Source of the DNA: Thermodesulfovibrionales bacterium
GTDB lineage: Bacteria > Nitrospirota > Thermodesulfovibrionia > Thermodesulfovibrionales > Dissulfurispiraceae
DNA: 64,000 nt
Assembly (NCBI GenBank): GCA_026415695.1
Contig: JAOAGP010000053.1
Span: 1 to 64,000, forward strand
Direction: 5' to 3'
How positions within the stretch are numbered: position 1 is the first letter of the stretch; every line of letters starts with the position of its first letter. The position numbers were made by a program, and so were the translations under genes. Below the pieces are notes generated by a model. It worked only from the letters and a program-made list of their open reading frames with translations. It did no database searches and was not told where the DNA came from. Positions 30,040 to 52,924 of this stretch are shown here, one piece after another.

Positions 30040-30777
30040 ATGGAAGGACAAGTTGCTTTGGTAACTGGTGGCACTCGTGGTATTGGTAAGTCTATAGCAA
30101 CATCTTTTGTAAAGGCGGGGATAAATACAATTATTACTGGTTTGAATGAAGAACGGGCAAAGGCTGCTTTACAAGAGATAAACCAAGATACAAACAGATG
30201 TAGATTTATCAGGTCAGATGTATCAAAATCAAGCGATGTAGCATCATTATTTGAGATAATAAGCAATGAATTTGGAAGGCTTGACATACTCATAAATAAT
30301 GCTGGCGTGACTAAAGACAATCTCTTGTTAAGGTCAAAAGAGGATGATTGGGATACAGTTATGGATACTAATCTAAAAGGCACTTTTTTATGCACCCAAG
30401 AGGCCATAAAGATAATGTCTCGTCAGAAATACGGTAGGATAGTCAACCTGACCTCTGTTGTTGCATTTATTGGGAATCCTGGACAGGCAATTTATGCAGC
30501 CTCAAAGGCTGGCATCATTGGGTTTACTCGTTCAGTTGCACTTGAGTATGCAAAAAGGGGAATAACGGTAAATGCTATAGCACCGGGTTTTATCAAAACA
30601 GACATGACCGATAGGATACCAGAAAAGATAAAGACGCAGATATTAGAGATGATACCAATGGGGACTTATGGTACAGGAGAAGATATAGCAAACGCTGTGA
30701 TGTTTTTGATATCACCAAACTCTTCTTACATAACTGGACAGGTAATTCATGTGAATGGTGGTATGTATCTTGGTTAA
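30040..30777 (+). CDS. fabG: 3-oxoacyl-[acyl-carrier-protein] reductase
   Basis: FabG reduces 3-oxoacyl-ACP with NADPH in fatty acid elongation. The 245-residue SDR protein has T-G-G-T-R-G-I-G near the start, N-N-A-G, and the catalytic S...Y-A-A-S-K pattern. I chose ATG 30040 (AGGAGG ten bases upstream) over the in-frame TTG at 30001. It is followed by acpP, fabF and rnc, the common core fatty-acid order. No fabD, fabH or plsX gene is visible. Confidence 0.94.
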   Translation: MEGQVALVTGGTRGIGKSIATSFVKAGINTIITGLNEERAKAALQEINQDTNRCRFIRSDVSKSSDVASLFEIISNEFGRLDILINNAGVTKDNLLLRSKEDDWDTVMDTNLKGTFLCTQEAIKIMSRQKYGRIVNLTSVVAFIGNPGQAIYAASKAGIIGFTRSVALEYAKRGITVNAIAPGFIKTDMTDRIPEKIKTQILEMIPMGTYGTGEDIANAVMFLISPNSSYITGQVIHVNGGMYLG

Positions 30778-30828
30778 TTTTTTTACACATTAATTTAGAT
30801 TATTAAAAAATCTATAGGAGGCAGACGA

Positions 30829-31059
30829 ATGATTGATGAAAAGGTAAGGGAAATTATCGCAAAACAGTTAGGTGTAGATATTGCACAGGTTACACCGGAG
30901 GCTTCTTTTGTTGAGGATTTAGGTGCAGATTCGCTTGACACTGTGGAGCTCGTTATGGCTTTTGAAGAGGAGTTTAAGGTTGAGATCCCCGATGAAGACG
31001 CAGAGAAGATAACAAAGGTCAAGGACGCAATAGAATATATTAAGAGCAAGACTTCTTAA
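30829..31059 (+). CDS. acpP: acyl carrier protein
   Basis: This 76-residue acidic protein carries growing acyl chains on 4'-phosphopantetheine. The attachment serine lies in [10 protein letters not shown] strong AGGAGG site precedes the ATG. It lies between fabG and fabF as in many bacteria and is the housekeeping ACP. The second, larger carrier protein at 49958-50521 is clearly different. Confidence 0.97.
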
Positions 31060-31063
31060 GAGT

Positions 31064-32311
31064 ATGTCTAAAAGAAGGGTAGTTGTTACAGGATTAGGGC
31101 TTATAACACCGTTAGGTCTTAATCTGACTGAATCGTGGGATGGGCTAATCAAAGGTGTTTCAGGCATTGATAAGATTACCTATTTTGATGCCTCTTCATT
31201 CCCTGTAAGAATTGCAGGTGAAGTCAAGGGTTTTGATCCAGCAAGTTATATTGAGCAAAAAGAGATAAAAAAGATGGATAGATTTATCCAGTTTGCCATT
31301 GCTGCAACGACCCACGCCTTGCAAGATGCAAGTCTGATGATAGACGATTCTATTTCAGAAAGGGTTGGTGTTTGCATTGGTTCAGGTATGGGAGGGTTAC
31401 CAACCATAGAACATTATCATAAGGTTTTACTTGAAAGAGGATATAGGAAAATTACCCCTTTTTTCATACCAATGCTCATAATAAATCTTGCCTCGGGGAA
31501 TGTTTCCATAAAGTTTGGGGCAAAGGGTCCTAATAGCTCAATCGTCACTGCCTGTGCAACAGGAACGCACTCTATAGGTGAGGCATTCAGGATAATCCAA
31601 AGGAACGATGCAGATGTTATGATAGCGGGTGGTACGGAATCCTGTATCACTCCGTTAGGGATAGCAGGTTTTGCAGTTATGCGGGCACTATCTACACGCA
31701 ATGATGAACCCCAATTAGCAAGCAGACCATTTGATATTGACAGAGATGGATTTGTGATGGGTGAAGGTTCGGGGATAATGATACTTGAAGAACTTGAGTT
31801 TGCAAAAAACAGGGGTGCCAAGATATATGCAGAGGTTATAGGTTATGGTATGTCTGCAGATGCCTATCATCTAACTGCCCCGTCTCCAGATGGTGAGGGC
31901 GCAGCAAGGTGTATGAGGTCAGCTATAAAGGATGCGTGCATCAAACCAAGCGATATAAACTACATAAACGCTCATGGTACATCTACAAAATTTGGAGATG
32001 AGATAGAGGTAAAGGCAATAAGGAATGTCTTTGGAGATGATATCTCAAAGGTAGCTGTAAGTTCAACAAAATCAATGATTGGACATCTATTAGGAGCAGC
32101 AGGTGGTGTTGAGGCTGTGATTTCTGTTTTAACTGTCTATAATGATATCGTCCCCCCTACGATAAACATAGTAAATCAGGACCCTGAATGTGATATTGAT
32201 TGTGTTGCAAATGTTGCAAGACAGATGCAGGTCAATTGTGCGATGAGTAATTCTTTTGGATTCGGTGGAACGAATGGATGTCTTATCTTTAGAAAATATA
32301 CAGGAGATTGA
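31064..32311 (+). CDS. fabF: 3-oxoacyl-[acyl-carrier-protein] synthase II
   Basis: FabF condenses malonyl-ACP with acyl-ACP. The 415-residue protein has the full Cys-His-His triad: C164 in T-A-C-A-T-G, His in N-A-H-G-T-S-T and His in [10 protein letters not shown]. It starts four bases after acpP. Its end overlaps rnc by 38 bases. It provides the in-window reference for judging the four ketosynthase-like genes at 44-50 kb. Confidence 0.96.
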
Positions 32312-39692: not shown

Positions 39693-40685
39693 ATGAAACG
39701 TCTTGTGTGTTTGTTGGCTGTCTTGGGTTTGTTGTCTTTGACCTCAATCGCTGAGGCAAAGAAGGTATTTATCAAATGGGGGGCAACGAATGTTCGTTCA
39801 GGTTTGTATGCCAACACAGTTGCAATGGCAAGTATTGTTAAGAAGGCATACCCTGGAGAGATTGAGGTTACTGTTGTTGAAACCGGTGGCTATTTAGAAA
39901 ATCTTGTAAGGATACAAAAGAAATCCATCCACATGGGGCCTGCCGATGCAGCTGCAGGTTATGCTGCGTATGAGGGAATAATTGATTATAAGGGGAAGCA
40001 GATTAAGGATTTGAGGGTAATGTGGGGAGGCTATATTACTCCTATTCACATTGTGACCACTAAAAAGAGTGGTGCAGATACCCTTGAAAAGATAAACGGT
40101 CTTCCGTTTGCAAGCAATCCGGGAACTACTTCAGGTAGGGCGATTGAACTATTCTTTGATGCAAATGGTATAAAGCCAGTGTATAAGATGATGGGTATTG
40201 GTGCAAGTGTGGATGCCCTTAAGTCTGGTGTGGCAAGTGGTTGGTATAAGGCTGGTTTTAAAGATGCCTCAATATTGGATTTGGAATCCTCAATGGACAT
40301 CAATGTCATTCCTATTACAAAAAAGCATGTTGAGAATATGGAGAAGAAATATCCTGGACAGATAAAAACAATGACTATACCTGCAGGTCTTTTCAAGGCT
40401 GTCACAAAAGAGCAGTTGTCCTTTGCATATGTTGTAACAGACTTTGTTCATAAGGATGTGCCAGAGGATGTTGTATATAAGATTGTGAAGGCAATCTATG
40501 AAAACAGGGCGTCTCTGGTTGGTTCATTATCCACATTAAGAGAAGGCAAGTTTGATGATATGTATGCCAATGCAGAGAAATACATCCAAGTTCCCCTACA
40601 TCCTGGTGCAGTGAAGTTTTATCAAGAGGTCTTAAAGGTAAAGGTGCCTGATAGACTCTTACCGCCAGAGATGAAGAAGAAGTAA
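39693..40685 (+). CDS. TAXI-family TRAP transporter solute-binding protein
   Basis: The 330-residue periplasmic protein captures a small carboxylate, amino acid or similar solute for a TRAP transporter driven by an ion gradient. Signal peptide at residues 1-22 (A-E-A). TAXI features are K-W-G-A-T-N-V-R-S-G-L-Y, V-E-T-G-G-Y-L-E-N and S-N-P-G-T-T-S-G-R-A. The membrane component is encoded two genes downstream. The ligand cannot be inferred. Confidence 0.93.
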   Translation: MKRLVCLLAVLGLLSLTSIAEAKKVFIKWGATNVRSGLYANTVAMASIVKKAYPGEIEVTVVETGGYLENLVRIQKKSIHMGPADAAAGYAAYEGIIDYKGKQIKDLRVMWGGYITPIHIVTTKKSGADTLEKINGLPFASNPGTTSGRAIELFFDANGIKPVYKMMGIGASVDALKSGVASGWYKAGFKDASILDLESSMDINVIPITKKHVENMEKKYPGQIKTMTIPAGLFKAVTKEQLSFAYVVTDFVHKDVPEDVVYKIVKAIYENRASLVGSLSTLREGKFDDMYANAEKYIQVPLHPGAVKFYQEVLKVKVPDRLLPPEMKKK

Positions 40686-40699
40686 AGGAGGTATAAACA

Positions 40700-41071
40700 A
40701 TGATAAACAGAATGTTTCATATTTTCTTCATAACGATCTCCATATTGTGTTTTTTTACAACAGTCTCTTTTGCCTCACCAGTTATAGAGATAGTCCCTCC
40801 TTCAGGGGCACCCGGTGATGTCATAAAGATAAACGGTAAAGGTTTCAAACCTGAAGAAGAGGTAGATGTCCTTTTTATACTTGATGCGGATATAAAGATA
40901 GCAATTGGCACTGAAAAGGTGGATGTTATAAAGGCTGATGCTCAAGGAAACTTTTCCGTTAGCTCTGGAATACCTGTTAATGCAAAGCCGGGGACTTACA
41001 CTATAGAGGCTTTTGGAAATAAGGATAGTACTACAACAACAAAGGTTGAGGTTACCCCTAAAAAGAAATGA
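40700..41071 (+). CDS. small secreted IPT/TIG-like immunoglobulin-fold protein
   Basis: This 123-residue protein has a signal peptide (hydrophobic core to about residue 26) and one beta-sandwich with P-P-S-G-A-P-G-D-V-I-K-I-N-G-K-G-F, the hallmark of IPT/TIG domains. It ends P-G-T-Y-T-I-E-A-F-G and a lysine tail. AAAGGAGG precedes the ATG. It sits between the TAXI receptor and the TRAP permease, where dctQ would often be. Here the permease is already fused, so it is an extra component. A role as accessory to the transporter is only suggested by position. Confidence 0.7.
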   Translation: MINRMFHIFFITISILCFFTTVSFASPVIEIVPPSGAPGDVIKINGKGFKPEEEVDVLFILDADIKIAIGTEKVDVIKADAQGNFSVSSGIPVNAKPGTYTIEAFGNKDSTTTTKVEVTPKKK

Positions 41072-41094
41072 AAGGAGCGTTTAAACAATAAAAA

Positions 41095-43074
41095 ATGCGT
41101 AGTCTAACGGGAATATGGAAGATAATCGCAGGTATAATTGCAGGTGTGTGGGGGATCTTTATCCTCTACACATCACTTACTGTTGCACTACATCCACTTT
41201 TACAAGGTGGTATATCTCTTAGTTTTGGACTTGCTCTGGTTTTTATTGCTTATCCCCTAACAAAGTCGGTGTTAAAAGACCCACCTCCTTCCCATTCGTC
41301 AATATTGAGATTTCTTGTATTTGGCACTAAGAAATCGCCATCAGTTTTAGATATAATCATAATCGCTTTAGGCATCATCCCGTGTGTGTATATAATGATA
41401 AATTGGGAGGAGATAGTAAGAAACCCCGGCGTTTATGAAACACATCACCTTGTTTTAGGTGCTATCTTAGTGTTATGTCTACTTGAGGGGACAAGGAGGT
41501 CATTAGGTGTCGTCATACCACTTGTTGTCTTGGGATTTGTGATTTATGCCATAGTAGGACCTTCAATACCGGGCACATTTGGACATTCTGGTTTTTCAGT
41601 TGATGAACTTTTGTATCAGTTCTATCTAATGACAGAAGGTATATGGGGACTTCTTACTGATATGACAAGCAGGATAATTGCACCGTTTGTCATATTTGGA
41701 CCTGTTCTATTTGCCACTGGCGTAGGTAAGGTTTTCATGGACATTGCACAGGCATGGGGTGGCAGGATGCGTGGAGGACCCGGTCATGTAGCAGTTATAT
41801 CAAGTTCATTCTTTGGTATGCTTTCAGGTTCATCAGTTGCAAATGTGGCTACTACTGGTGCATTTACGATCCCAACCATGAAAAAATTAGGGTTTCCTCG
41901 TGAACTTGCTGCTGGTGTAGAGGCATCTGCCTCCTCTGGTGGTCAAATCATGCCTCCTATCATGGGTGCGGGGTGTTTCATCATGGCAGAGTTTCTAAAT
42001 ATCCCCTATACCAATATAATGATTGCAGGTATAATCCCAGCAATAATCTATTTCGTTGGTATCTCTGCTGGGATATGGATAGAGGCTGGACGTTATGGGA
42101 TGGGAAAACTACCCAAAGAGATGATACCTTCACTAAAAGAGATACTTAAAGCAAGGGTATTTTTCAATTTTATCATACCTATTGGCACTTTAACTGCTTT
42201 GCTCTTTTCCTTTTATCCTCCGCAGATATGTGCGGCTTGGTCGCTGATCGTTTCTGCAATAACATTTCTTATAATCGGCGGTGGTTACTCGCTTAAAGAG
42301 ATATGGCAGAGGATAAAGACTATTTGGAATGGCTATTTTGATGGAATCATGTCTGCTTTGGCATGGCTCATGGTGATGATGAGTTGTGTTCAGGTAGCAG
42401 TCACCGTTATATCTCTTACAGGTTTTGGTGTGAAGGTTTCAGAGATAATCATTAATCTTTCTGGTCACAACATCTATTTAGCCCTTGTTGCTGCAATGTT
42501 GACGGCAATAATACTTGGTATGGGGATGACAACTACTGCTGCATATGTTATTGCCGCTGCAGTGTTGGTGCCAGCAATGGAAGGTATGGGGCTTGATCCT
42601 TTGGCAAGTCACATGTTTATCTTTTACTTTGCCATAAAATCGGGTCTTACACCTCCTGTCTGTATCGCAGTGTTTACTGCTGTTGCCATATCAGGAGGAA
42701 ATTGGTTAAGGGCAGCATGGGATTCTATGAGGCTTGGAATTGGTGGCTACATAATGCCTTTTTTCTTTGTATTTGTGCCGTCCTTCTTGATGAAGGGTAG
42801 TTACGATGATATCATATTTCACTTTATCGGTGCATTTGTGGCGATGTTTACCATTGAAGCAGGGCTCATGGGATTCTTTACAAAGCCATTAACATGGCTT
42901 GAACGGATAATCTATTTTGTGGGCGGTCTATTTTTAATGGCTCCCGGATACTACACATTTATTGGTTTAGGCATATCAGCAGTTGCATTTCTGATGGAAA
43001 AGTTTAACTTCCAAATCCCAGTGATACTTAAAAGACCCCAGCAACTTGTACACAAATATAAATACACACAATAA
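41095..43074 (+). CDS. TRAP transporter fused permease (DctQ-DctM type)
   Basis: The 659-residue integral membrane protein combines the small 4-TM and the large 12-TM subunits of a TRAP transporter, as is common with TAXI receptors. The DctM part is recognised by F-G-M-L-S-G-S-S-V-A-N-V-A-T-T-G, A-S-A-S-S-G-G-Q-I-M-P-P-I-M-G and G-M-G-M-T-T-T-A-A-Y. The ATG lies unusually far (18 bases) from the only GGAG-like site. No better in-frame start is seen. Confidence 0.92.
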   Translation: MRSLTGIWKIIAGIIAGVWGIFILYTSLTVALHPLLQGGISLSFGLALVFIAYPLTKSVLKDPPPSHSSILRFLVFGTKKSPSVLDIIIIALGIIPCVYIMINWEEIVRNPGVYETHHLVLGAILVLCLLEGTRRSLGVVIPLVVLGFVIYAIVGPSIPGTFGHSGFSVDELLYQFYLMTEGIWGLLTDMTSRIIAPFVIFGPVLFATGVGKVFMDIAQAWGGRMRGGPGHVAVISSSFFGMLSGSSVANVATTGAFTIPTMKKLGFPRELAAGVEASASSGGQIMPPIMGAGCFIMAEFLNIPYTNIMIAGIIPAIIYFVGISAGIWIEAGRYGMGKLPKEMIPSLKEILKARVFFNFIIPIGTLTALLFSFYPPQICAAWSLIVSAITFLIIGGGYSLKEIWQRIKTIWNGYFDGIMSALAWLMVMMSCVQVAVTVISLTGFGVKVSEIIINLSGHNIYLALVAAMLTAIILGMGMTTTAAYVIAAAVLVPAMEGMGLDPLASHMFIFYFAIKSGLTPPVCIAVFTAVAISGGNWLRAAWDSMRLGIGGYIMPFFFVFVPSFLMKGSYDDIIFHFIGAFVAMFTIEAGLMGFFTKPLTWLERIIYFVGGLFLMAPGYYTFIGLGISAVAFLMEKFNFQIPVILKRPQQLVHKYKYTQ

Positions 43075-43105: not shown

Positions 43106-44011
43106 TCAATCGTAAACCTTCCACCTATTGTGTATCCACAGGTATTGATTAGGGTAAAGTCTAATAAATTCTTCCATTTGAGAAGTCATAATCTGCGTAA
43201 TCCTCTGTATCTCTTGTCTTTCATTTGGATCTTCTGATGGTAATATGGGGTCACTAATCAGAGCAACAAACTCACCGCTTGTTTCATCCCTACAACAACA
43301 AACAACAACAATAGGTCTCTTGTATGAAATACTAAGCAGTGCTGGCACAGGCGTAGCAGTAGCTGTTTTACCAAAGAAGACTACATTTAAGCCCTTCTTT
43401 GTGCTTTGGTCAGGTAGTAGCCCAATTGAAAATCCTTTTTTTAGATATTGCTGTAGTTTATAGAGGGCATTTTTCTTTGGGATGAATATCTGACCAGTAG
43501 AGGTTCTGTTTTTTAAGAGGAGTTTTTCTAAATATGGATTGTCAAGTGGTCGTGCGACGATTATTAGTGGAATGCCCACTGAGTGACTTACATGAGGCAG
43601 TATTTCCCAATTGCCAAGATGAGGTGTTACAAAGATACAGCCGTTATATTTGTCATGTAGTTCCTTTGCCTTATGAAAAACCTTAAGGATGCCCTCGTTT
43701 TTTGACGCTATTTCATGTAATCTTTGAGAATTGCTAACTACATTTTGGTATTTTACAGCCTCTAAAAAGGTAAGTGCTAATGATTGACAACTCTTAAGAG
43801 CCATCCTTTTGACAGAATCCTCTTTTAGCGAATCCTTAAATGCCTCAGATATGTTTGTCAATGCTATGTTTCTTCTCTTTTTTGAGATGTAAAAAATTGC
43901 ACTACCAATCAACTTACTCAATATCTTAAGTAATGAAACGGGCGATACCCTTATAGCTAATAGGATTGCATAAACGAGGACAAACTCTAATATGTGTCTT
44001 ATCTTCTTCAA
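43106..44011 (-). CDS. LpxL/HtrB-family lipid acyltransferase
   Basis: LpxL-family enzymes move an acyl chain from acyl-ACP to lipid A or a related lipid at the inner membrane. The 301-residue protein has an N-terminal hydrophobic anchor and the catalytic HX4(D/E) motif H131-L-G-N-W-E136. Further family blocks are V-A-R-P-L-D-N-P and L-L-P-D-Q-S. It is the last gene of the nine-gene lipid cluster and ends at a terminator. Comparable positions are held by LpxXL in rhizobial very-long-chain acyl clusters and by the acyltransferase of aryl-polyene clusters. I infer that it uses the chain made by the upstream genes. Confidence 0.88.
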   Translation of the reverse strand: MKKIRHILEFVLVYAILLAIRVSPVSLLKILSKLIGSAIFYISKKRRNIALTNISEAFKDSLKEDSVKRMALKSCQSLALTFLEAVKYQNVVSNSQRLHEIASKNEGILKVFHKAKELHDKYNGCIFVTPHLGNWEILPHVSHSVGIPLIIVARPLDNPYLEKLLLKNRTSTGQIFIPKKNALYKLQQYLKKGFSIGLLPDQSTKKGLNVVFFGKTATATPVPALLSISYKRPIVVVCCCRDETSGEFVALISDPILPSEDPNERQEIQRITQIMTSQMEEFIRLYPNQYLWIHNRWKVYD

Positions 44012-44022
44012 CCTGATGAATG

Positions 44023-45288
44023 CTATTTTGCTACTTGAATTAATGTTGCAACCGACTGACCACCTAATCCATTACTTACAGTCATGAAGATGTCTTTATC
44101 TGTTGGCGTGTGGGATTTTGTAAAAGGTATTGGAGAAAACCTTTCATCAGTATCAACAAGATTAGGGGTTTTAGGAATAAAACCATCTTTTAGGCAACAC
44201 AAAGAAATAGCAATGTCAAAGATATCACTTGCAGCACCCATATGCCCTGTGTATGGTTTTAATGCACATACTGGCACGGTTTGTTGGTAGTCTTCAAATA
44301 ACCTCATAATAGACAGCATCTCTGCATTGTCTCCCTTTTGAGACCCACTACCGTGTGCACATATGAAGCCAATATCCTCCATCTTTAATCCTGCCGATTC
44401 AAGACAGCCCCTCATAGCCCTGTAGGTCATAAAAGTAGGCACAGAGATGCCATGTTTATCAGTGGTGTCACAAACACAGTAGGTGTTGATTACCTTACCC
44501 AAGATAACAGCCCCTCTATCTAATGCCAAGTCTGGCTGTTCAATGACCAGTGCTGCTGATCCTTCTGATGGGATAAAGCCATCCCTTTTTTTATCAAATG
44601 GCATGAATGAAGATTCCCCCTTTTTACCGCTACTTATTAGTCCAAGCCCTTTCATCTCATATACACTCACATCGTTTATCCAAGATGTAGAGCCGATTAC
44701 TAATGACAACCTTGACCTATTCTGTCTAATGCTTCTTGATGCAAGATCAAGTGCTAATGAGCCACATGGTGATAGGGATGCAATGGATGTATTATCCCCC
44801 ATTACATTGAAATAGGCAGATATAAAACTAAATGGATTATTGGCAATACTATCAAGGAGGAAAAAGGGATTTACCTTATTGAGTGCCATTTTATTGAACT
44901 TATCAAATGCAATGTCTGATATCTTTGTTTTAAGGAAGTTCTTTGTTACTTGTGATATAAACTCACAACCGGTGTTTGTCAAGTCTCCTGTTGCTAAGAA
45001 GATGCATTTGTCTTCAGGGGGTATTGATTGATAATCAACCATAGACATTGCCTCAATAGCTGATATGAGCCCTAATATACCTCCACGATTTAGGAATTTA
45101 AACTGTCCTGTAAGATGGGATGGTATTTCTGGATTTTGTCCTATCTCAACACTTCCTCTGTAATCATTGTCATTATACCTTGTAAAAGAGGTTATGGACT
45201 CCCTAATTGCTTTAAGATTTTTGTCTAACCCAATACCAAGTGGTGTTGTTATCCCGATACCAGTTATCACAGGTGAAGTCATTTCCAA
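44023..45288 (-). CDS. ketosynthase-fold protein with Cys-to-Ser nucleophile change (KS1)
   Basis: This 421-residue protein is a FabF-type thiolase fold. At the nucleophile the reference T-A-C-A-T-G is S-L-S-P-C-G, so Ser173 takes the place of cysteine and a cysteine occurs two residues later (C175). The first histidine (C-A-H-G-S-G-S) and second (Y-T-G-H-M-G-A-A-S) are kept. A Ser-His-His ketosynthase could act as a chain-length factor, as a decarboxylase, or in partner dimerisation. Its start overlaps the end of the dehydratase gene by ten bases. Confidence 0.82.
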   Translation of the reverse strand: MEMTSPVITGIGITTPLGIGLDKNLKAIRESITSFTRYNDNDYRGSVEIGQNPEIPSHLTGQFKFLNRGGILGLISAIEAMSMVDYQSIPPEDKCIFLATGDLTNTGCEFISQVTKNFLKTKISDIAFDKFNKMALNKVNPFFLLDSIANNPFSFISAYFNVMGDNTSIASLSPCGSLALDLASRSIRQNRSRLSLVIGSTSWINDVSVYEMKGLGLISSGKKGESSFMPFDKKRDGFIPSEGSAALVIEQPDLALDRGAVILGKVINTYCVCDTTDKHGISVPTFMTYRAMRGCLESAGLKMEDIGFICAHGSGSQKGDNAEMLSIMRLFEDYQQTVPVCALKPYTGHMGAASDIFDIAISLCCLKDGFIPKTPNLVDTDERFSPIPFTKSHTPTDKDIFMTVSNGLGGQSVATLIQVAK

Positions 45289-45716
45289 GACTCCTGTCTG
45301 ATGAGTGTTTCAAATCGTCTTTTTTGTTGTTCCCTGTCTTCAACCTCTTCAACATCAATTACTATACCACTAAATTCGGCAACTACTTTCTTCTTACCAT
45401 CTACCTCACCAATTCCTTTAAATGATGTGTCATTTATGTTTTCTACAGTCAGTGTTATCTGGTCACCCGGTAATGCAAAACTATAAAACTTGCAGAGGGT
45501 TATATCCTGCAATAAAAACCACTTGGTAAAATCCGTCTTTTTTAGGGTAAACCACCCTGCAAGTTGAACCAATGCCTCAAGAAGCAATACACCGGGCATC
45601 ACAGGTCTGTCAGGGAAATGGAATTCAAGAAAGTCTTCACTCATTGCTACATTCTTAACCCCTACAATTGTGTTGTCTTTAATCTCCTTTATCCTATCAA
45701 TCAACAAATACCTCAA
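45279..45716 (-). CDS. FabZ-like 3-hydroxyacyl-ACP dehydratase (DH1)
   Basis: The 145-residue hot-dog fold protein carries H-F-P-D-R-P-V-M-P-G-V, with the catalytic His, followed by L-L-L-E-A-L-V-Q, with the catalytic Glu. It would dehydrate the 3-hydroxyacyl intermediate in the dedicated chain-building pathway. It lies between two ketosynthase genes with a ten-base overlap on one side and three bases on the other. Confidence 0.88.
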   Translation of the reverse strand: MRYLLIDRIKEIKDNTIVGVKNVAMSEDFLEFHFPDRPVMPGVLLLEALVQLAGWFTLKKTDFTKWFLLQDITLCKFYSFALPGDQITLTVENINDTSFKGIGEVDGKKKVVAEFSGIVIDVEEVEDREQQKRRFETLIRQESWK

Positions 45717-45719
45717 TTT

Positions 45720-46982
45720 CTATCCTCCATACTTTCTAAATAGTAATGTGGTGTTTTGACCACCAAATCCAAAAGAATTTGACATGGCATTTCTGATAGT
45801 TATAGCAAGTGGCTTATTGGCTGTGTAATCAAGGTCACACTTTGTATCTGGTGATGAGAGGTTTAGGGTAGGGTGTATGATGTCATCCTTAACAGACATA
45901 GCAGTAAACACAGCCTCTGGTGCACCGCTTGCAGACAGAAGATGACCAATGAGTGATTTGCTTGAGTTTATCTTTAAATTATAAGCGTGTTCTTTAAAGA
46001 CCTCTTTGATTGCTATTGTCTCTGATATGTCATTAAGTTTTGTGCTTGTCCCGTGTGCGTTAATATAGTCAACCTCTTCTGGTCTTATACTTGCATCCTC
46101 AAGTGCCTTTGTCATTGAGATGATAGCACCCTTGCCATTAGGTTCTGGGGCGGTTATCTGATAGGCATCTATTGATGCCCCATAACCTGCAATCTCACAA
46201 TATATGTTTGCCCCTCTTTTTATGGCGTGCTTTTCTGATTCAAGCACCAAAAAACCTGCACCTTCACCCATCACAAGCCCAGACCTTCTGCTGTCAAAGG
46301 GCTTACATGCAGTGGTATCTTTTGAGGGTGATGCAGCACCAAGTAAGACAAAGAAGATTAGACCAACTGGGTTTATCATTGAATCAGAGCCACCTGCGAT
46401 AACAATATCGGTCTCTCCCCTTTGAATCGCCCTTAAGCCAATACCGATTGCCTGTGTTGCTGATGCACATGCTGATGTGACGGTTATATTTCTACCACAA
46501 ACCCCAAATCTCCTTGCGATAAGGGCTGGAGGTCTGTGAGAGTTGTTTCTCAATATTGATTCCTTGTGAATGAGACTGTAATTTTTAAAAAGCATCTCAT
46601 TGCTGAAGGACTTATCCTCCATGAAGTTAAAGATGTCTTCTAACCTATTGATGCCTAATCCTGCAGAAAAGGAGATTTGGGATTGTCTTAATTGGTCTTG
46701 ATTAAGTCCTGCATCATCAATCGCCTCTTTTGCTGCCCAAAGTGCAAACAATGTGCGCGACTCACCTTCTATGTTTGCCTCTTGAGGAAATGCTCTTTTA
46801 ATCTCCTCAACATCATCCTTTGATACTATCCCAGCCACACTTATAGGTGAATTGGGATAGATATCTTGTATTAACCTTATGCCGTTTTGCCCTTTAAGTG
46901 CAGCATCCCAGTTTGTCTTTAGTCCTAACCCCAAGGATGTTACAATACCAAGACCTGTGATTAGTGCCTTTTGTTTTATCAT
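45720..46982 (-). CDS. 3-oxoacyl-ACP synthase, catalytically complete (KS2)
   Basis: FabF-type ketosynthase of 420 residues with C172 in T-S-A-C-A-S-A, His in N-A-H-G-T-S-T and His in L-I-G-H-L-L-S-A-S-G. It probably provides one of the two condensing activities of the cluster and may pair with a non-catalytic neighbour, as ketosynthase and chain-length factor do in type II polyketide and aryl-polyene systems. That pairing is an inference. The gene is followed at three bases by DH1. Confidence 0.9.
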   Translation of the reverse strand: MIKQKALITGLGIVTSLGLGLKTNWDAALKGQNGIRLIQDIYPNSPISVAGIVSKDDVEEIKRAFPQEANIEGESRTLFALWAAKEAIDDAGLNQDQLRQSQISFSAGLGINRLEDIFNFMEDKSFSNEMLFKNYSLIHKESILRNNSHRPPALIARRFGVCGRNITVTSACASATQAIGIGLRAIQRGETDIVIAGGSDSMINPVGLIFFVLLGAASPSKDTTACKPFDSRRSGLVMGEGAGFLVLESEKHAIKRGANIYCEIAGYGASIDAYQITAPEPNGKGAIISMTKALEDASIRPEEVDYINAHGTSTKLNDISETIAIKEVFKEHAYNLKINSSKSLIGHLLSASGAPEAVFTAMSVKDDIIHPTLNLSSPDTKCDLDYTANKPLAITIRNAMSNSFGFGGQNTTLLFRKYGG

Positions 46983-47040: not shown

Positions 47041-47487
47041 CTACTGTCTAACATCAATTCCACTATAGTAATGAAACCATCGTTTTAGCATATCGCTGTC
47101 AACATTGTGAAAATGGCTGTAGATTATCCTATTTATCCTTGCAATCTCATCTCCATCAACGGTCATCCATGCCCTGCCAAGTGAATCTCTCTTGTTTGTG
47201 TTTATTATCTCACCATGTATTGTAGCCTTTATGCCGGGTCTTAAATCAGGACATACCCTTACCCCATCAATAAGGGTCATGATTGATGAGAGGTTGAAGT
47301 TATGCGTGTAGATTATCAACCATCCTAAAAGTTGTGCCATTGCCTCAATGTATATTACCCCGGGAATGAGGGGCTTTTTTGTAAAATGACCCCTAAAGAA
47401 CTCCTCTGAAAGCGAGAATGTCTTTACACCTATGATGTCCTTTCCTTTATTGATAATATCAATCTTGTCGTAGTATAAAAACCTCAT
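47041..47487 (-). CDS. FabZ-like 3-hydroxyacyl-ACP dehydratase (DH2)
   Basis: A 148-residue hot-dog fold protein with G-H-F-T-K-K-P-L-I-P-G-V (His) and I-Y-I-E-A-M-A-Q (Glu). It is clearly different from DH1, so the two may differ in chain length or double-bond geometry, as in clusters that carry two dehydratases. It overlaps the start-side neighbour (KS3) by four bases. A 58-base gap separates it from KS2. Confidence 0.86.
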   Translation of the reverse strand: MRFLYYDKIDIINKGKDIIGVKTFSLSEEFFRGHFTKKPLIPGVIYIEAMAQLLGWLIIYTHNFNLSSIMTLIDGVRVCPDLRPGIKATIHGEIINTNKRDSLGRAWMTVDGDEIARINRIIYSHFHNVDSDMLKRWFHYYSGIDVRQ

Positions 47488-48623
47488 TTTCCTCTTCCAA
47501 TGATCAGCGATGTTACATTGCCCTCAACACTCATCGCATTTATGAGTATGTGTTTTATTGGTTTTGATGTGGCAACTATGTTTGTAGTTTGTCCTAAAAG
47601 TATCCTGATACCTAACGATACATCAAAAGCCCCTGCACACGAAAGCATGTCTCCGACAAAAGGTTTTGTGCATATTGTGGTTACTGATGAGTTGCCAAAA
47701 ACAGTTTTTATTGCCCTGTCTTCGTTATGCCCATCGTGTGTTTGTGTATCATCATGTGTAAAGATAAGGTTGATGTCATTTGGTTTAAGGTTGGCATCCT
47801 CAAGGGCAAGTCTCATAGATGTTGTAATAGCATCTGTTGTAGCACCACCATTTATCTCATCAAAACCAAAACTTGCTCCAAAACCATTTATAACACAGAG
47901 TGCTGATATCCCTCTTTCTTGGGCATTACAGATGTTTTCAAGACAGAATGCAACCACACCTTCTGAAAGTGCATAGGATGGGATATTGCTTGTATCACCA
48001 ACTCTACTTGCCTTTGTATTACAAAGCAGGTATCTTACAAGACACAGCGGTGAGATTATCTCACTTACAGCCCCTGCTATTGCTACCCTTGATCTCCCCT
48101 CAACAACAGACATCCAACCTTCGTAAATGGCATTTAAAGATGAGTCTGAATGTGGTGAGAAGACCCCATTATCTCCCTTTATACCTAATCTGATGGCACA
48201 CTGACACATGGCAATATTATTAAGCATTGTAAGTGGCCATAATGGATAAATCTCCCTAAACCCCTTTTTAAAAAAAAGTGTATAATCAAGATGCCCATCT
48301 TTTATTGATTTGTTTACAGCAGGCAATAAGTCAGAAACATCGTAATCAAACATGCCTAATGCTGTAAAGATACCGATGTCATGGGGTTCATAATGGTCAA
48401 GAAACGAATCTTTAAAGACAGCACCTGTTGCACTTAGCAACATTGCGGTGTGCTTACCAATAATTTTTGAGTCTCTTGATTTGGATTCTGAATGAACGAC
48501 ATCGCAGATGTGATGATTGTCAATATCAAAAAAGTCATTTAAGTCTTTGAACCTTACCCCTTTTGATTCAGGAGTTTTAGGGGCGATAACCTCCATTGAG
48601 GTTATTGCAATATCATGTATCAT
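47484..48623 (-). CDS. degenerate ketosynthase-fold protein lacking active-site residues (KS3)
   Basis: I chose the ATG at 48623 (GAGAGGG upstream, 11-base overlap with KS4) over the longer open frame. The 379-residue protein keeps the overall ketosynthase layout, but where Cys is expected there is S-P-H158-S-D-S. The first His is kept (I-F-T-H-D-D). The second is replaced by Asp (F-V-G-D-M-L-S-C-A-G). It cannot be a normal condensing enzyme. The open frame, tight coupling and preserved fold segments argue against a pseudogene. A chain-length-factor or scaffold role is likely. Confidence 0.72.
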   Translation of the reverse strand: MIHDIAITSMEVIAPKTPESKGVRFKDLNDFFDIDNHHICDVVHSESKSRDSKIIGKHTAMLLSATGAVFKDSFLDHYEPHDIGIFTALGMFDYDVSDLLPAVNKSIKDGHLDYTLFFKKGFREIYPLWPLTMLNNIAMCQCAIRLGIKGDNGVFSPHSDSSLNAIYEGWMSVVEGRSRVAIAGAVSEIISPLCLVRYLLCNTKASRVGDTSNIPSYALSEGVVAFCLENICNAQERGISALCVINGFGASFGFDEINGGATTDAITTSMRLALEDANLKPNDINLIFTHDDTQTHDGHNEDRAIKTVFGNSSVTTICTKPFVGDMLSCAGAFDVSLGIRILLGQTTNIVATSKPIKHILINAMSVEGNVTSLIIGRGK

Positions 48624-49911
48624 TATCCCTCTCTGCTCCGATACACAGGCATGCATTCTGTCCACCAAAACCAAAGGAGTTTGATAGGGCTATTTTATGT
48701 GACTTCTTGATAGCATTGTTTGGCACATAAAAAAGATCACACTTGGGGTCAGGAAATTCGTAATTAATGGTGGGTAGTATCGTTGAATCGTTTATGCCCA
48801 TCAGTGTAAGCACACACTCAATGGCTCCAGCTGCTGCGATGGCATGCCCAAGCATTGACTTGTTTGAACTTATGGGTATCTCTCTTGCCCTTTCCCCAAA
48901 TACCTCTTTTATTGCCAGAGTTTCTGTCATGTCGTTTTGAAGGGTGGATGTCCCATGTGCATTTATGTAATCTATATCGTCAATAGTAATGCCTGCGTCT
49001 TTTATAGCCTTTTTCATTGCTATTATTGCACCTAATCCTTTAGGATGCATATCAGTGATTCTGTAGGCATCAGCAGAGGCGCCATAACCCATCAATTCAC
49101 CATATATCTTTGTCCCTCTACTTAAGGCATGGTGATATTCTTCAAGTATTACTACGCCAGCCCCTTCTGACATAACAAAACCATTCCGTTTTCTGTCAAA
49201 TGGTCTTGATGCAGTTTGTGGTGAGGTATATCGTTCTGCAAGTGCCTTTAGAGAGATAAAACCTAAATAACCAAAAAAATCCGTCACAGATTCAGAACCA
49301 CCAGCAACAAACACATCTGCCCTGTCATCCAATATCGCCTTGTATGCCTCACCGATAGCTTGGGCACCAGCGGCACAGGCTGAAACACTTATCATGTTGT
49401 GCCCCCGTATATCAAATACATCGGCGCAGATGGTTGATGTAATGTCAGGTTTTCTTTTAAAGAAATTGAGATAGTTATATCCGCCTGACTTTTCCATTTG
49501 TGCTAAATCCCATTTGTCTCTTGTATTGTAAAATCTATGGAGGTGTAGCATATCCTTAATCTTGGGATTATCACCATGATTGCCAACACTTACACCTATC
49601 CTGTAACGGTCTTTTACAGAGTCAAGACCTGCCATGGTGTATGCCTCTTTTGTGGCATGTATGAGTAGTAAGGCACCTCTTGATAAGTATTTTAATGACT
49701 TGCCTACAATAGACTTATCAAGCCAGTCTTCTTTTACCTCTCCACCAATATTACAAGGCAGTGAGGAGGTGTCAAATGATTTTATATAGTCAATACCTGA
49801 CCTTCCAGCCTTGCAATTCGTGAAGGTTTCTTGGGCATTTGCACCAAGGCAGGTAATCATACCATACCCTGTTATTACAACCCTTTTTCTTGATTTATGA
49901 TGTGGGATCAT
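48613..49911 (-). CDS. 3-oxoacyl-ACP synthase, catalytically complete (KS4)
   Basis: The 432-residue protein has C179 in S-V-S-A-C-A-A-G, His in N-A-H-G-T-S-T and His in M-L-G-H-A-I-A-A-A-G. It directly follows the AcpXL-like carrier and overlaps KS3 by 11 bases. The KS4/KS3 pair, with one active and one degenerate partner encoded back to back, recalls the KS/CLF heterodimers of type II polyketide synthases. Confidence 0.9.
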   Translation of the reverse strand: MIPHHKSRKRVVITGYGMITCLGANAQETFTNCKAGRSGIDYIKSFDTSSLPCNIGGEVKEDWLDKSIVGKSLKYLSRGALLLIHATKEAYTMAGLDSVKDRYRIGVSVGNHGDNPKIKDMLHLHRFYNTRDKWDLAQMEKSGGYNYLNFFKRKPDITSTICADVFDIRGHNMISVSACAAGAQAIGEAYKAILDDRADVFVAGGSESVTDFFGYLGFISLKALAERYTSPQTASRPFDRKRNGFVMSEGAGVVILEEYHHALSRGTKIYGELMGYGASADAYRITDMHPKGLGAIIAMKKAIKDAGITIDDIDYINAHGTSTLQNDMTETLAIKEVFGERAREIPISSNKSMLGHAIAAAGAIECVLTLMGINDSTILPTINYEFPDPKCDLFYVPNNAIKKSHKIALSNSFGFGGQNACLCIGAERDNDT

Positions 49912-49957: not shown

Positions 49958-50521
49958 CTAAAAAATCCTTCTTTCCTTTTGGATGTTTTCAATATAATTG
50001 ACTATCAAATCATCTCCATTTGTGTATTCTGCTGGTTCACCGCAGGATGAACATACCAACTGAAGATGCTCTGCAAACTTCCAATCTTTACCCCCACATG
50101 CAGTGCATTTCTCTGGTAGGGTTTGAAGTATATCCATCACACCCTTTGCAAGCGATTCTACGGTTATTAAGGATGTAACCTCATCAATGTAAATGCCTGA
50201 TTTTAGGTCTTTTGCCTTCTCACCAAGCCTTATTTTGAGCAATTCGATTGCCTTGTCCGTCAGTTTTCCAGTATCGTCAATAGCCACACCCTCTCCATAT
50301 AACTCCTCAACATGCTCAAGGATAAATCTCCTTGCCATCTTTATACCAAAGGTTTGCTCTAATCGGTAATTTATATCAAGAAAGTCAAGTGACTCAGCCC
50401 CTAAATCCTTGATCAAGGAACTGTCTGGTGTAATCCTTGAGATGTCAATGTTGAGTGTCTCTGCGATTGCCTTTTTTGTCTCTTCTAAAACCTGTTCATA
50501 GGTGATGAAATTGTTTGACAT
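49958..50521 (-). CDS. AcpXL-like acyl carrier protein fused to a zinc ribbon
   Basis: Residues 1-70 are a carrier domain. Ser44 in D-L-G-A-E-S-L-D-F-L-D-I is the phosphopantetheine site, and the following F-G-I-K segment resembles rhizobial AcpXL (special ACP for very-long-chain lipid A acyl groups). A helical linker follows (about 75-135), then a zinc ribbon with C139-X2-C142 and C157-X2-C160. Normal ACPs have 75-95 residues. At 187 this one is more than twice that length. The role of the ribbon is unknown. It may dock partner enzymes. The domain reading is direct from motifs. Confidence 0.83.
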   Translation of the reverse strand: MSNNFITYEQVLEETKKAIAETLNIDISRITPDSSLIKDLGAESLDFLDINYRLEQTFGIKMARRFILEHVEELYGEGVAIDDTGKLTDKAIELLKIRLGEKAKDLKSGIYIDEVTSLITVESLAKGVMDILQTLPEKCTACGGKDWKFAEHLQLVCSSCGEPAEYTNGDDLIVNYIENIQKERRIF

Positions 50522-50535
50522 TAAATGCCCTCCAT

Positions 50536-51303
50536 TTATCTAAAGTGTATAATCTGATTGCTCATTCCTCTATCTACAACTATCGTTTGCCCCCTAATAC
50601 CCCTGCTTGCAGGTAGGCAAAGGAATGCTACCACCTCTGCAATCTCCTGTTCGTCAACTATCATGTCTTCAGGTATCTTATCGATCCCTTCCCACATCTG
50701 TCTTAAGACCTTAAAGGAATCGGTTTTCACTATGCCACCGCATACTGCATTAACGGATATCTTGTCATTTGCAAGGCTACAAGATAGATCCCTGATTACC
50801 GTTTCCATCGCAGATTTCATCATCCCAAGTGGATAAGACGGATTATAAAACCTGCTTCCAAGACTTGATATGAAGACTATCTTACCTTGCGTTTCCTTAA
50901 GCAATGGTATTGCCTGTTGGATACAAAATATGTTTCCAAACAGATTGACATCAACGAGTTGTCTCAATTCCCTCTCAAAGAGTTTTTCAATGGGTTTAAA
51001 GGGTGCCCGAGCAGCATTTAAAATAAGAAAATCCAATCTGTTGAATGTATCTTTGACCTTTTCAAAGAGTGTCTTTACATCCTCTTTTGATGATATATCA
51101 GTCCTAACAACGAGGGATTTTAGACCCATGTTGTTGATGGTATCAGAAAGGGAAAATGCCTGTGTTTCAGACGAACCACCAGCCTTTGTGTAATTTATAA
51201 CGATGTTACATCCTAAATTAGCAAAGTGCTGTGCGATTGCCCTGCCAATACCCCTTGAACTTCCAGTTATCAGAGCAACTTTATCTTGCAATGGTAGATT
51301 CAT
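50536..51303 (-). CDS. SDR-family reductase, FabL/FabI-like (first gene of lipid cluster)
   Basis: The 255-residue Rossmann protein has T-G-S-S-R-G-I-G and R-G-Q-T-I-V-V-D near the end. From memory, the segment I-S-S-L-G-S-R-F-Y and the downstream V-C-G-G-I-V-K-T-D look closer to FabL-type enoyl-ACP reductases than to FabG. The Tyr-Lys spacing is odd: Y157 and K163 are five residues apart, not three as in FabG and not six as in FabI/FabL. It could reduce the enoyl or the 3-oxo intermediate. No other reductase is present in the cluster. Confidence 0.78.
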   Translation of the reverse strand: MNLPLQDKVALITGSSRGIGRAIAQHFANLGCNIVINYTKAGGSSETQAFSLSDTINNMGLKSLVVRTDISSKEDVKTLFEKVKDTFNRLDFLILNAARAPFKPIEKLFERELRQLVDVNLFGNIFCIQQAIPLLKETQGKIVFISSLGSRFYNPSYPLGMMKSAMETVIRDLSCSLANDKISVNAVCGGIVKTDSFKVLRQMWEGIDKIPEDMIVDEQEIAEVVAFLCLPASRGIRGQTIVVDRGMSNQIIHFR

Positions 51304-51450: not shown

Positions 51451-52284
51451 ATGGAATCTTTAGAACTCAATAACATCTATCACATGGATTGCATTGAAGG
51501 TATGAAGAATATACCTGAAGACAGTATTGATATTGTCATCACAGACCCACCATTTGCGATAGACTTTAAGGCAAAAAGGAGTAATTACAACAGGACAGCA
51601 ACTCGGGTTATTGAAGGGTATAATGAGATACCAAAGGACAATTACCATGATTTTACGATTAAATGGATGACAGAGGTTTATCGTGTGCTTAGAGATTCTG
51701 GTAGTATGTATGTGTTTTCTGGTTGGAATAATCTCAAAGATATCTTAATTGCAATTGATGATTTGGGATTTATCACAGTCAATCATATCATTTGGAAATA
51801 CCAGTTTGGTGTTGTTACAAAAAGGAGGTTTATTACATCACATTATCATTGTCTTTATGTCTGTAAGGATGATGCAAAGAGAAGATTTTTCCCTTATGCC
51901 CGATTTCAAAAGGATGCGACAGATGGTAATGGTGGTAGCCTACATTACAAGGACAAAGAGGATGTCTGGGTGATTAAACGAGAGTATTGGACAGGACAGC
52001 AAAAAACCCCCACAAAGTTACCAGCAGAACTCATAAAGAAGATACTTTTGTATTCAACACAAGAGGGGGATGTTGTGTTAGACCCCTTTTTAGGCTCTGG
52101 ACAGGTTGCCGTAATTAGCAAGTTGATGAATAGAAGATATATAGGTTTTGAGATTGTAAAAGAGTATTATGAATTTGCTAAAAAAAGGCTGGAAGAAAAT
52201 TTGTATACGATAAAAGACAATCAACAAAGAATCACGAGTAATATACCACTTAATCTCTTTGAAAAGAAACAAGATGAATTTTAA
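51451..52284 (+). CDS. type II DNA methyltransferase, beta class
   Basis: The 277-residue protein has the catalytic D32-P-P-F35 near the N-terminus and the SAM-binding motif D211-P-F-L-G-S-G-Q near the C-terminus, the order of beta-class enzymes. DPPF favours N6-adenine methylation, but N4-cytosine cannot be excluded. It protects the host from the endonuclease that follows with an 11-base overlap. The start has no good Shine-Dalgarno. Confidence 0.88.
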   Translation: MESLELNNIYHMDCIEGMKNIPEDSIDIVITDPPFAIDFKAKRSNYNRTATRVIEGYNEIPKDNYHDFTIKWMTEVYRVLRDSGSMYVFSGWNNLKDILIAIDDLGFITVNHIIWKYQFGVVTKRRFITSHYHCLYVCKDDAKRRFFPYARFQKDATDGNGGSLHYKDKEDVWVIKREYWTGQQKTPTKLPAELIKKILLYSTQEGDVVLDPFLGSGQVAVISKLMNRRYIGFEIVKEYYEFAKKRLEENLYTIKDNQQRITSNIPLNLFEKKQDEF

Positions 52285-52924
52285 AGAAATATCAGAACAA
52301 ATTGCACAGAAATTGCAAACTATACATAAATTCTGGGACGGTAAAGAGTCAATTTTAGAAATGAAAGAAGCAGGATACCCCCATTGGAAGCAAATGGAAT
52401 GGATAGGATTTTATTTTCAGTTCATATGTGAGAAGAATTTGCGATGCTTTATGGATATACCCGGGCCAAAATATGGCAATGTTCAATTTGATGCTTTTAA
52501 ACATATTCCTTGGGATTTTAAAGCTCATGCTATGAATACGAGTAGTCATCAAATAATAGTAAATGATTCAGAAGCTACTGCTAATGGGATTAGACAGTAT
52601 AATGCGGTTGGATTAATATTAGCATTAGGTAAGGTTCAATATAACGATGAGGATAGAAAATTCCAAGCATGGCATGAATCCATAAAAGGTAAGATATCAG
52701 AATATACAATACATAGAATAAAAAGAGGTGCTTGGTCAAGGATAAGGAAGGTTTCTTTTGAGTTAAAACAAATTGCTTTTATAAAAATAAGAGATGAAAC
52801 ACTAATAAAGTGTGGGGCATTTCAACAGGATTTTAGAAATGCTAATGGTAGTCCTAGAAGATCAAAAGTTTTACTAGATCTTGAAAAGATAGACGAAGAA
52901 CTTGAATATTGCATTGAGTTTTAA
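52274..52924 (+). CDS. type II restriction endonuclease, PD-(D/E)XK fold
   Basis: I chose ATG 52274. An in-frame start at 52259 is possible. The 216-residue protein has F-D73-A-F followed by W-D81-F-K83, a plausible PD-(D/E)XK centre. Its overlap with the methyltransferase gene marks it as the cognate restriction enzyme. The recognition site cannot be read from the sequence. The pair looks more AT-rich than its neighbours, as expected for acquired defence genes. Confidence 0.78.
   Translation: MNFKEISEQIAQKLQTIHKFWDGKESILEMKEAGYPHWKQMEWIGFYFQFICEKNLRCFMDIPGPKYGNVQFDAFKHIPWDFKAHAMNTSSHQIIVNDSEATANGIRQYNAVGLILALGKVQYNDEDRKFQAWHESIKGKISEYTIHRIKRGAWSRIRKVSFELKQIAFIKIRDETLIKCGAFQQDFRNANGSPRRSKVLLDLEKIDEELEYCIEF

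Follow-up and report, generated by a model that had tools for sequence, protein, structure and literature searches.

What an acyl carrier protein (ACP) gains from a putative zinc ribbon at its C-terminus is the question raised by this locus of the window, the whole stretch of 64,000 nucleotides that was analysed. Carrier pathways in one cell are usually thought to be kept apart by surface charge and by subtle helix contacts. Here a whole conserved domain has apparently been added once to a carrier and kept across phyla together with one enzyme set. Judged from sequence, the ribbon-ACP very probably serves a type II, highly reducing fatty-acid or polyketide-like synthase as its dedicated carrier; that the ribbon docks it on the enzymes of the cluster has an even chance.

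Gene and carrier domain

The ribbon-ACP gene lies on the minus strand (49958-50521, start at the 50521 end) and is a single open frame of 187 aa; the plus strand of the same interval is full of stops. On translation of this frame, the residue numbers of the preliminary description (Ser44, C139, C142, C157, C160) are correct. The attachment site Ser44 stands within E43-S44-L45-D46-F47-L48-D49 (ESLDFLD) and is invariant in the alignment of relatives, and the tail cysteines are arranged as C139-X2-C142 and C157-X2-C160. The Pfam PP-binding model is matched with an E-value of 2e-9 and 37.9 bits, above its gathering score of 20.8. By sequence the protein is a real acyl carrier protein, for which phosphopantetheinylation is predicted. 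It had been called AcpXL-like: the carrier domain is borne out by the PP-binding match, but AcpXL is a resemblance only, the best NCBIfam model, PRK06508 (AcpXL), scoring 50.2 bits, below its equivalog cut-off of 83 bits. No Pfam or NCBIfam family other than PP-binding was matched above its cut-off.

An erroneous fusion of a separate ribbon gene was ruled out, as 30 ribbon-complete proteins, drawn from several phyla, have both parts in one frame. The opinion that no stand-alone ACP with such a ribbon had been characterised holds for the sources searched: no curated family covers the architecture, and no account of it was found in the literature searched, with most subscription papers outside the reach of that search. 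The combination of ACP and ribbon seems undescribed, each component being of a familiar kind.

Ribbon and predicted structure

The motif C-X1-2-C-X4-W-X8-10-C-X2-C-X8-GD[DE]L is matched by all 30 ribbon-complete proteins, the window's included, a set that contains near copies and does not amount to 30 independent events. All four cysteines, the tryptophan and the GD(D/E)L helix are kept in each of them, and the first knuckle is CXC in seven. Because the motif is kept in 30 of 30 while the ACP part is free of cysteine in 30 of 31 proteins, the four-cysteine ribbon is judged from the alignment to be well beyond chance expectation. A zinc ribbon is defined by two Cys knuckles on beta-hairpins that hold one zinc ion; the four cysteines and predicted strands are seen here, and zinc is the putative metal. 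In Pfam, the ribbon region gave weak matches only, mainly to zinc-ribbon families (TFIIB, rubredoxin-like, DZR), and in the fold search the ribbon of TFIIB was matched weakly (E 0.38); the closest ribbons by sequence or fold are likewise weak matches, mostly zinc ribbons such as those of TFIIB and ribosomal proteins. With a ribbon-only profile the ACP was the sole match in seven of eight genomes, the eighth adding one weak extra match.

The AlphaFold model of the ribbon-ACP, computed with an alignment of 17 relatives, has a mean pLDDT of 91 and a pTM of 0.85. Its helices at 8-23, 44-58, 67-75, 89-103, 112-116 and 121-132 are followed by a ribbon of two strands and, at 169-184, by a terminal helix. 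The confidence of the ribbon is higher inside the full protein (92-95) than when it is folded alone (71), and for this reason the model suggests that the ribbon packs on the rest of the ACP. In the Foldseek alignment, ACPs of 80 aa extend across some 120 model columns, which suggests that the canonical ACP helix IV may be the late helix at 121-132. At residues 82-96, the other placement considered, the tail of an ordinary ACP aligned only at the level of chance, with 103 of 300 shuffles doing as well.

Ribbonless relatives and origin of the ribbon

Whole-genome profile searches also returned ribbonless relatives of 130-140 aa that end after the middle region. This region had been described as a helical linker. 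Helices are indeed predicted there, and the region is better regarded as belonging to a long-form ACP, in which it is conserved and which is also found without a ribbon. Ribbonless long ACPs have the ACP core and the middle region in common with the ribbon-ACP, and a ketosynthase gene was nearby in 14 of the 16 ribbonless loci read, several of which also hold dehydratase and LpxL-type genes; they differ in lacking both the ribbon and the terminal helix. On this comparison of sequences, the middle region belongs to the long ACP and the ribbon is an addition to it.

In a tree built on the ACP part, ribbon columns excluded, the ribboned proteins form one side of a single branch (support 100/99) and the ribbonless proteins stand on the other, their own order being unsure owing to long branches. 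With a root outside the ribboned proteins, the simplest reading of the tree would be that the ribbon was added once to a long ACP.

Operon in the window

The operon runs from 51303 to 43106 in the gene order of Table 1, with short gaps or overlaps. The real start of KS2 is probably the ATG at 48623. KS1 is followed by a KS2 that has lost its active cysteine, which is the gene arrangement of a type II pair of ketosynthase and chain length factor (KS-CLF); the genes adjoin, and the two proteins may form a heterodimer.

Table 1. Genes of the operon, listed from 51303 to 43106
Feature	Coordinates	Strand	Evidence
FabL-like SDR, probable enoyl- or ketoacyl-ACP reductase	50536..51303	-	Pfam adh_short_C2 2.5e-48
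Long-form ACP of 187 aa with putative zinc ribbon at C-terminus	49958..50521	-	Ser44; Cys 139, 142, 157, 160; terminal helix 169-184
KS1, FabF-type ketosynthase, Cys-His-His intact	48613..49911	-	TIGR03150 424 bits; motifs kept in all relatives
KS2, degenerate ketosynthase, chain-length-factor-like	47484..48674	-	Active Cys gone in all, catalytic His in most
DH1, FabZ/FabA-like hot-dog dehydratase	47041..47487	-	Pfam FabA 3.4e-14; H and E in window protein
KS3, FabF-type ketosynthase, Cys-His-His intact	45720..46982	-	TIGR03150 404 bits
DH2, FabZ-like hot-dog dehydratase	45279..45716	-	Pfam FabA 8.5e-18
KS4, divergent ketosynthase	44023..45288	-	Lys and His kept; Cys absent in 5 of 15 aligned
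LpxL/HtrB-type acyltransferase with HX4E	43106..44011	-	Pfam Lip_A_acyltrans 3.8e-44

For the SDR the best NCBIfam model is FabL (208 bits, below the cut-off of 328) and the best PDB match is FabL of B. subtilis (3oic, 1.9e-41). The protein of the window and all its relatives have Y-X5-K in place of the Yx6K motif of FabL (PMC9260719), so that reduction of enoyl groups by this enzyme is likely but not sure.

Elsewhere the window encodes an ordinary ACP of 76 aa (30829-31059), flanked by a fabG-like and a fabF-like frame; these genes (30502-31300) are probably those of housekeeping fatty acid synthesis. The interval 51451-52924 holds a CcrM-like N6/N4 DNA methylase (277 aa) followed by a 221-aa frame, perhaps its restriction partner. 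By eye, three frames at 39693-43074 resemble a TAXI-type TRAP transporter (binding protein, small protein and fused membrane protein).

Distribution and co-occurrence

Relatives of the ribbon-ACP were sought by a contig scan, whose full-length query (the window protein) favours ribboned relatives, and by whole-genome profile searches, which accept ribbonless ones too. They were found in Nitrospirota, in Thermodesulfobacteriota and metagenome-assembled genomes titled Deltaproteobacteria, in Acidobacteriota and in Gammaproteobacteria. The search for the pair of ACP and ribbon in other genomes, which the preliminary description had proposed, found it in several phyla and always with the ketosynthase/acyltransferase gene set. 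The gene order of the operon also recurs in relatives from several phyla, and the LpxL-type acyltransferase is the last gene in most complete operons. Between KS3 and DH2, a FabG-like SDR is encoded in many relatives, and an AcpS-type phosphopantetheinyl transferase in at least six; neither gene is present in the operon of the window, where this junction is at 45716-45720. In one relative (L008:3217-6378) the operon is apparently interrupted between KS1 and KS2 by the insertion of a 1053-aa frame that is read from the other strand.

Full-length ribbon-ACPs were present in 10 of 198 Nitrospirota genomes, an eleventh match being ribbonless, and the KS2 profile found the same 10 at E <= 1e-110, with all other matches no stronger than 7e-70, where ordinary FabF proteins score; these are raw counts over the 198 genomes, kinship ignored. 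The two genes are about 47 kb apart in genome G083 and on different contigs in G158, G062 and G150. Where the split operon was read (L102 and L103 in G083, L104 and L105 in G158), the SDR, the ribbon-ACP and KS1 are in one locus and the rest in the other. As the ribbon-ACP occurs in the same 10 genomes as KS2 even with the operon split, the set of SDR, ACP and KS1 and the remainder are evidently kept together without being adjacent. The ribbon-ACP is absent from 12 sampled genomes of the family of the source organism, a pattern that would fit horizontal transfer or loss on several occasions.

Proposed role of the carrier and its ribbon

What is read from the sequences is the gene set, the motifs and their conservation, the co-occurrence and the one branch that bears the ribbon; charging, elongation, processing and unloading of the carrier are steps that we infer from the gene families. 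Ser44 would take up phosphopantetheine, several relatives encoding an AcpS-type transferase in the same operon. KS1 and KS3, both predicted to be active, would elongate the chain on the ribbon-ACP, accompanied in the operon by the divergent or inactive KS2 and KS4, and each round would be processed by FabG/FabL-like reductases and the two dehydratases. The LpxL-type acyltransferase would then transfer the finished, probably long, chain from the ribbon-ACP to an envelope lipid. The ribbon and terminal helix may form a metal-stabilised extension of the ACP, specific for the enzymes of the cluster and most likely for a pair of ketosynthase and inactive ketosynthase, and may hold the carrier separate from housekeeping fatty acid synthesis. 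The docking role is likewise inferred, as are the metal, the length of the chain and its acceptor. As the operon of the window is without FabG and AcpS, housekeeping enzymes would serve there, and the idea of full insulation is weakened. The ribbon does not appear to be required for the chemistry, since ribbonless long ACPs adjoin similar ketosynthase, dehydratase and LpxL genes. It may steer the carrier to the cluster's enzymes, as suggested earlier, and the co-occurrence with KS2 agrees with this.

The ribbon might instead be a stabiliser alone, packing on the enlarged insertion of the ACP and holding a larger acyl pocket or the fold without contact to a partner. The high confidence of the single-body model (pTM 0.85), the lower certainty of the ribbon alone and the presence of the same middle region in related ribbonless long ACPs point this way; yet those ACPs evidently persist without a ribbon, and the strict co-occurrence with KS2 fits partner recognition at least as well, so that this reading is rather unlikely. 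That the ribbon or the terminal helix serves chain delivery, by binding the carrier to the LpxL-type acyltransferase or to the membrane and not to the ketosynthases, is improbable: the acyltransferase, already named as an option in the preliminary description, does end most complete operons, but ribbonless long ACPs also adjoin LpxL genes, and split operons keep the ACP with the SDR and KS1, the acyltransferase of G158 being in the other locus. The four cysteines might also sense redox state or metal (disulfide/zinc or iron) and turn the carrier on or off. This would fit hosts from anoxic samples, of which there are some by record title, and the rubredoxin-like entry among the weak Pfam matches. 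It is very improbable against weak sequence and fold matches that are mostly zinc ribbons (TFIIB, ribosomal proteins) and operons that have no recurrent gene for a redox partner.

A dedicated carrier of a type II synthase, with the ribbon giving partner specificity, is the best explanation as a whole and is held to be evenly balanced between right and wrong. With the natural ribbonless relatives as controls, the specificity of a carrier for its partners can be put to a direct test. In uncultured Nitrospirota and other bacteria, an envelope lipid that is so far undescribed is a candidate product of the operon.

Comparison with known systems

In the rhizobial VLCFA-lipid A system, a C26-C28 chain is transferred to lipid A. 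The cluster acpXL-fabZXL-fabF1XL-fabF2XL-lpxXL provides for this system the same functions as are found in the window, namely a stand-alone special ACP, a ketosynthase pair, a dehydratase and an LpxL-type acyltransferase (PMC5613085), and AcpXL of R. palustris (RPA2022) is among the PDB matches of the ribbon-ACP (9.2e-9). That the operon is plainly this system has nevertheless only the slightest probability: the ACP falls below the PRK06508 cut-off, is about twice as long as the 93 positions of that model and bears a ribbon, whereas AcpXL is shorter and ribbonless, and the window has two ketosynthase pairs and two dehydratases where the rhizobial cluster has one of each.

The aryl polyene type II synthase (ApeO-ApeC, ApeR, ApeQ and dehydratases; PMC8358021) resembles the operon in having a ketosynthase with chain length factor, an extra ketosynthase, a ketoreductase, one or more dehydratases and stand-alone ACPs. 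It differs in its two ACPs, for which no ribbon is described; in the operon of the window no gene for an aryl starter was recognised, and the FabL-like reductase could saturate the chain. Nitrospirae are one of the phyla for which KS-CLF pairs have been catalogued (PMC10132072), and the enzyme type is therefore not new to the phylum.

For a role of the ribbon in partner specificity, the DUF35 family (PF01796) offers a precedent by analogy only. Its member PhlB has a Cys4 ribbon and mediates the binding of the thiolase-fold proteins PhlA and PhlC (PMC6392133), PhlA having been described as an inactive member of the fold and a proposed regulator of chain length (PMC2954200). As would be the case for the ribbon-ACP, a Cys4 ribbon works with a thiolase-fold pair of which one partner is inactive. 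DUF35 combines its ribbon with an OB fold, whereas the ribbon of the window is fused to an ACP; DUF35 is not among the families listed for 17 ribbon-ACP members, and the model contains no OB-like set of strands. It is possible, though doubtful, that the ribbon-ACP, through a metal module of its own, stays in a lasting complex with a pair of ketosynthase and inactive ketosynthase, in the manner of DUF35 but of independent origin, within an undescribed envelope-lipid pathway of several phyla.
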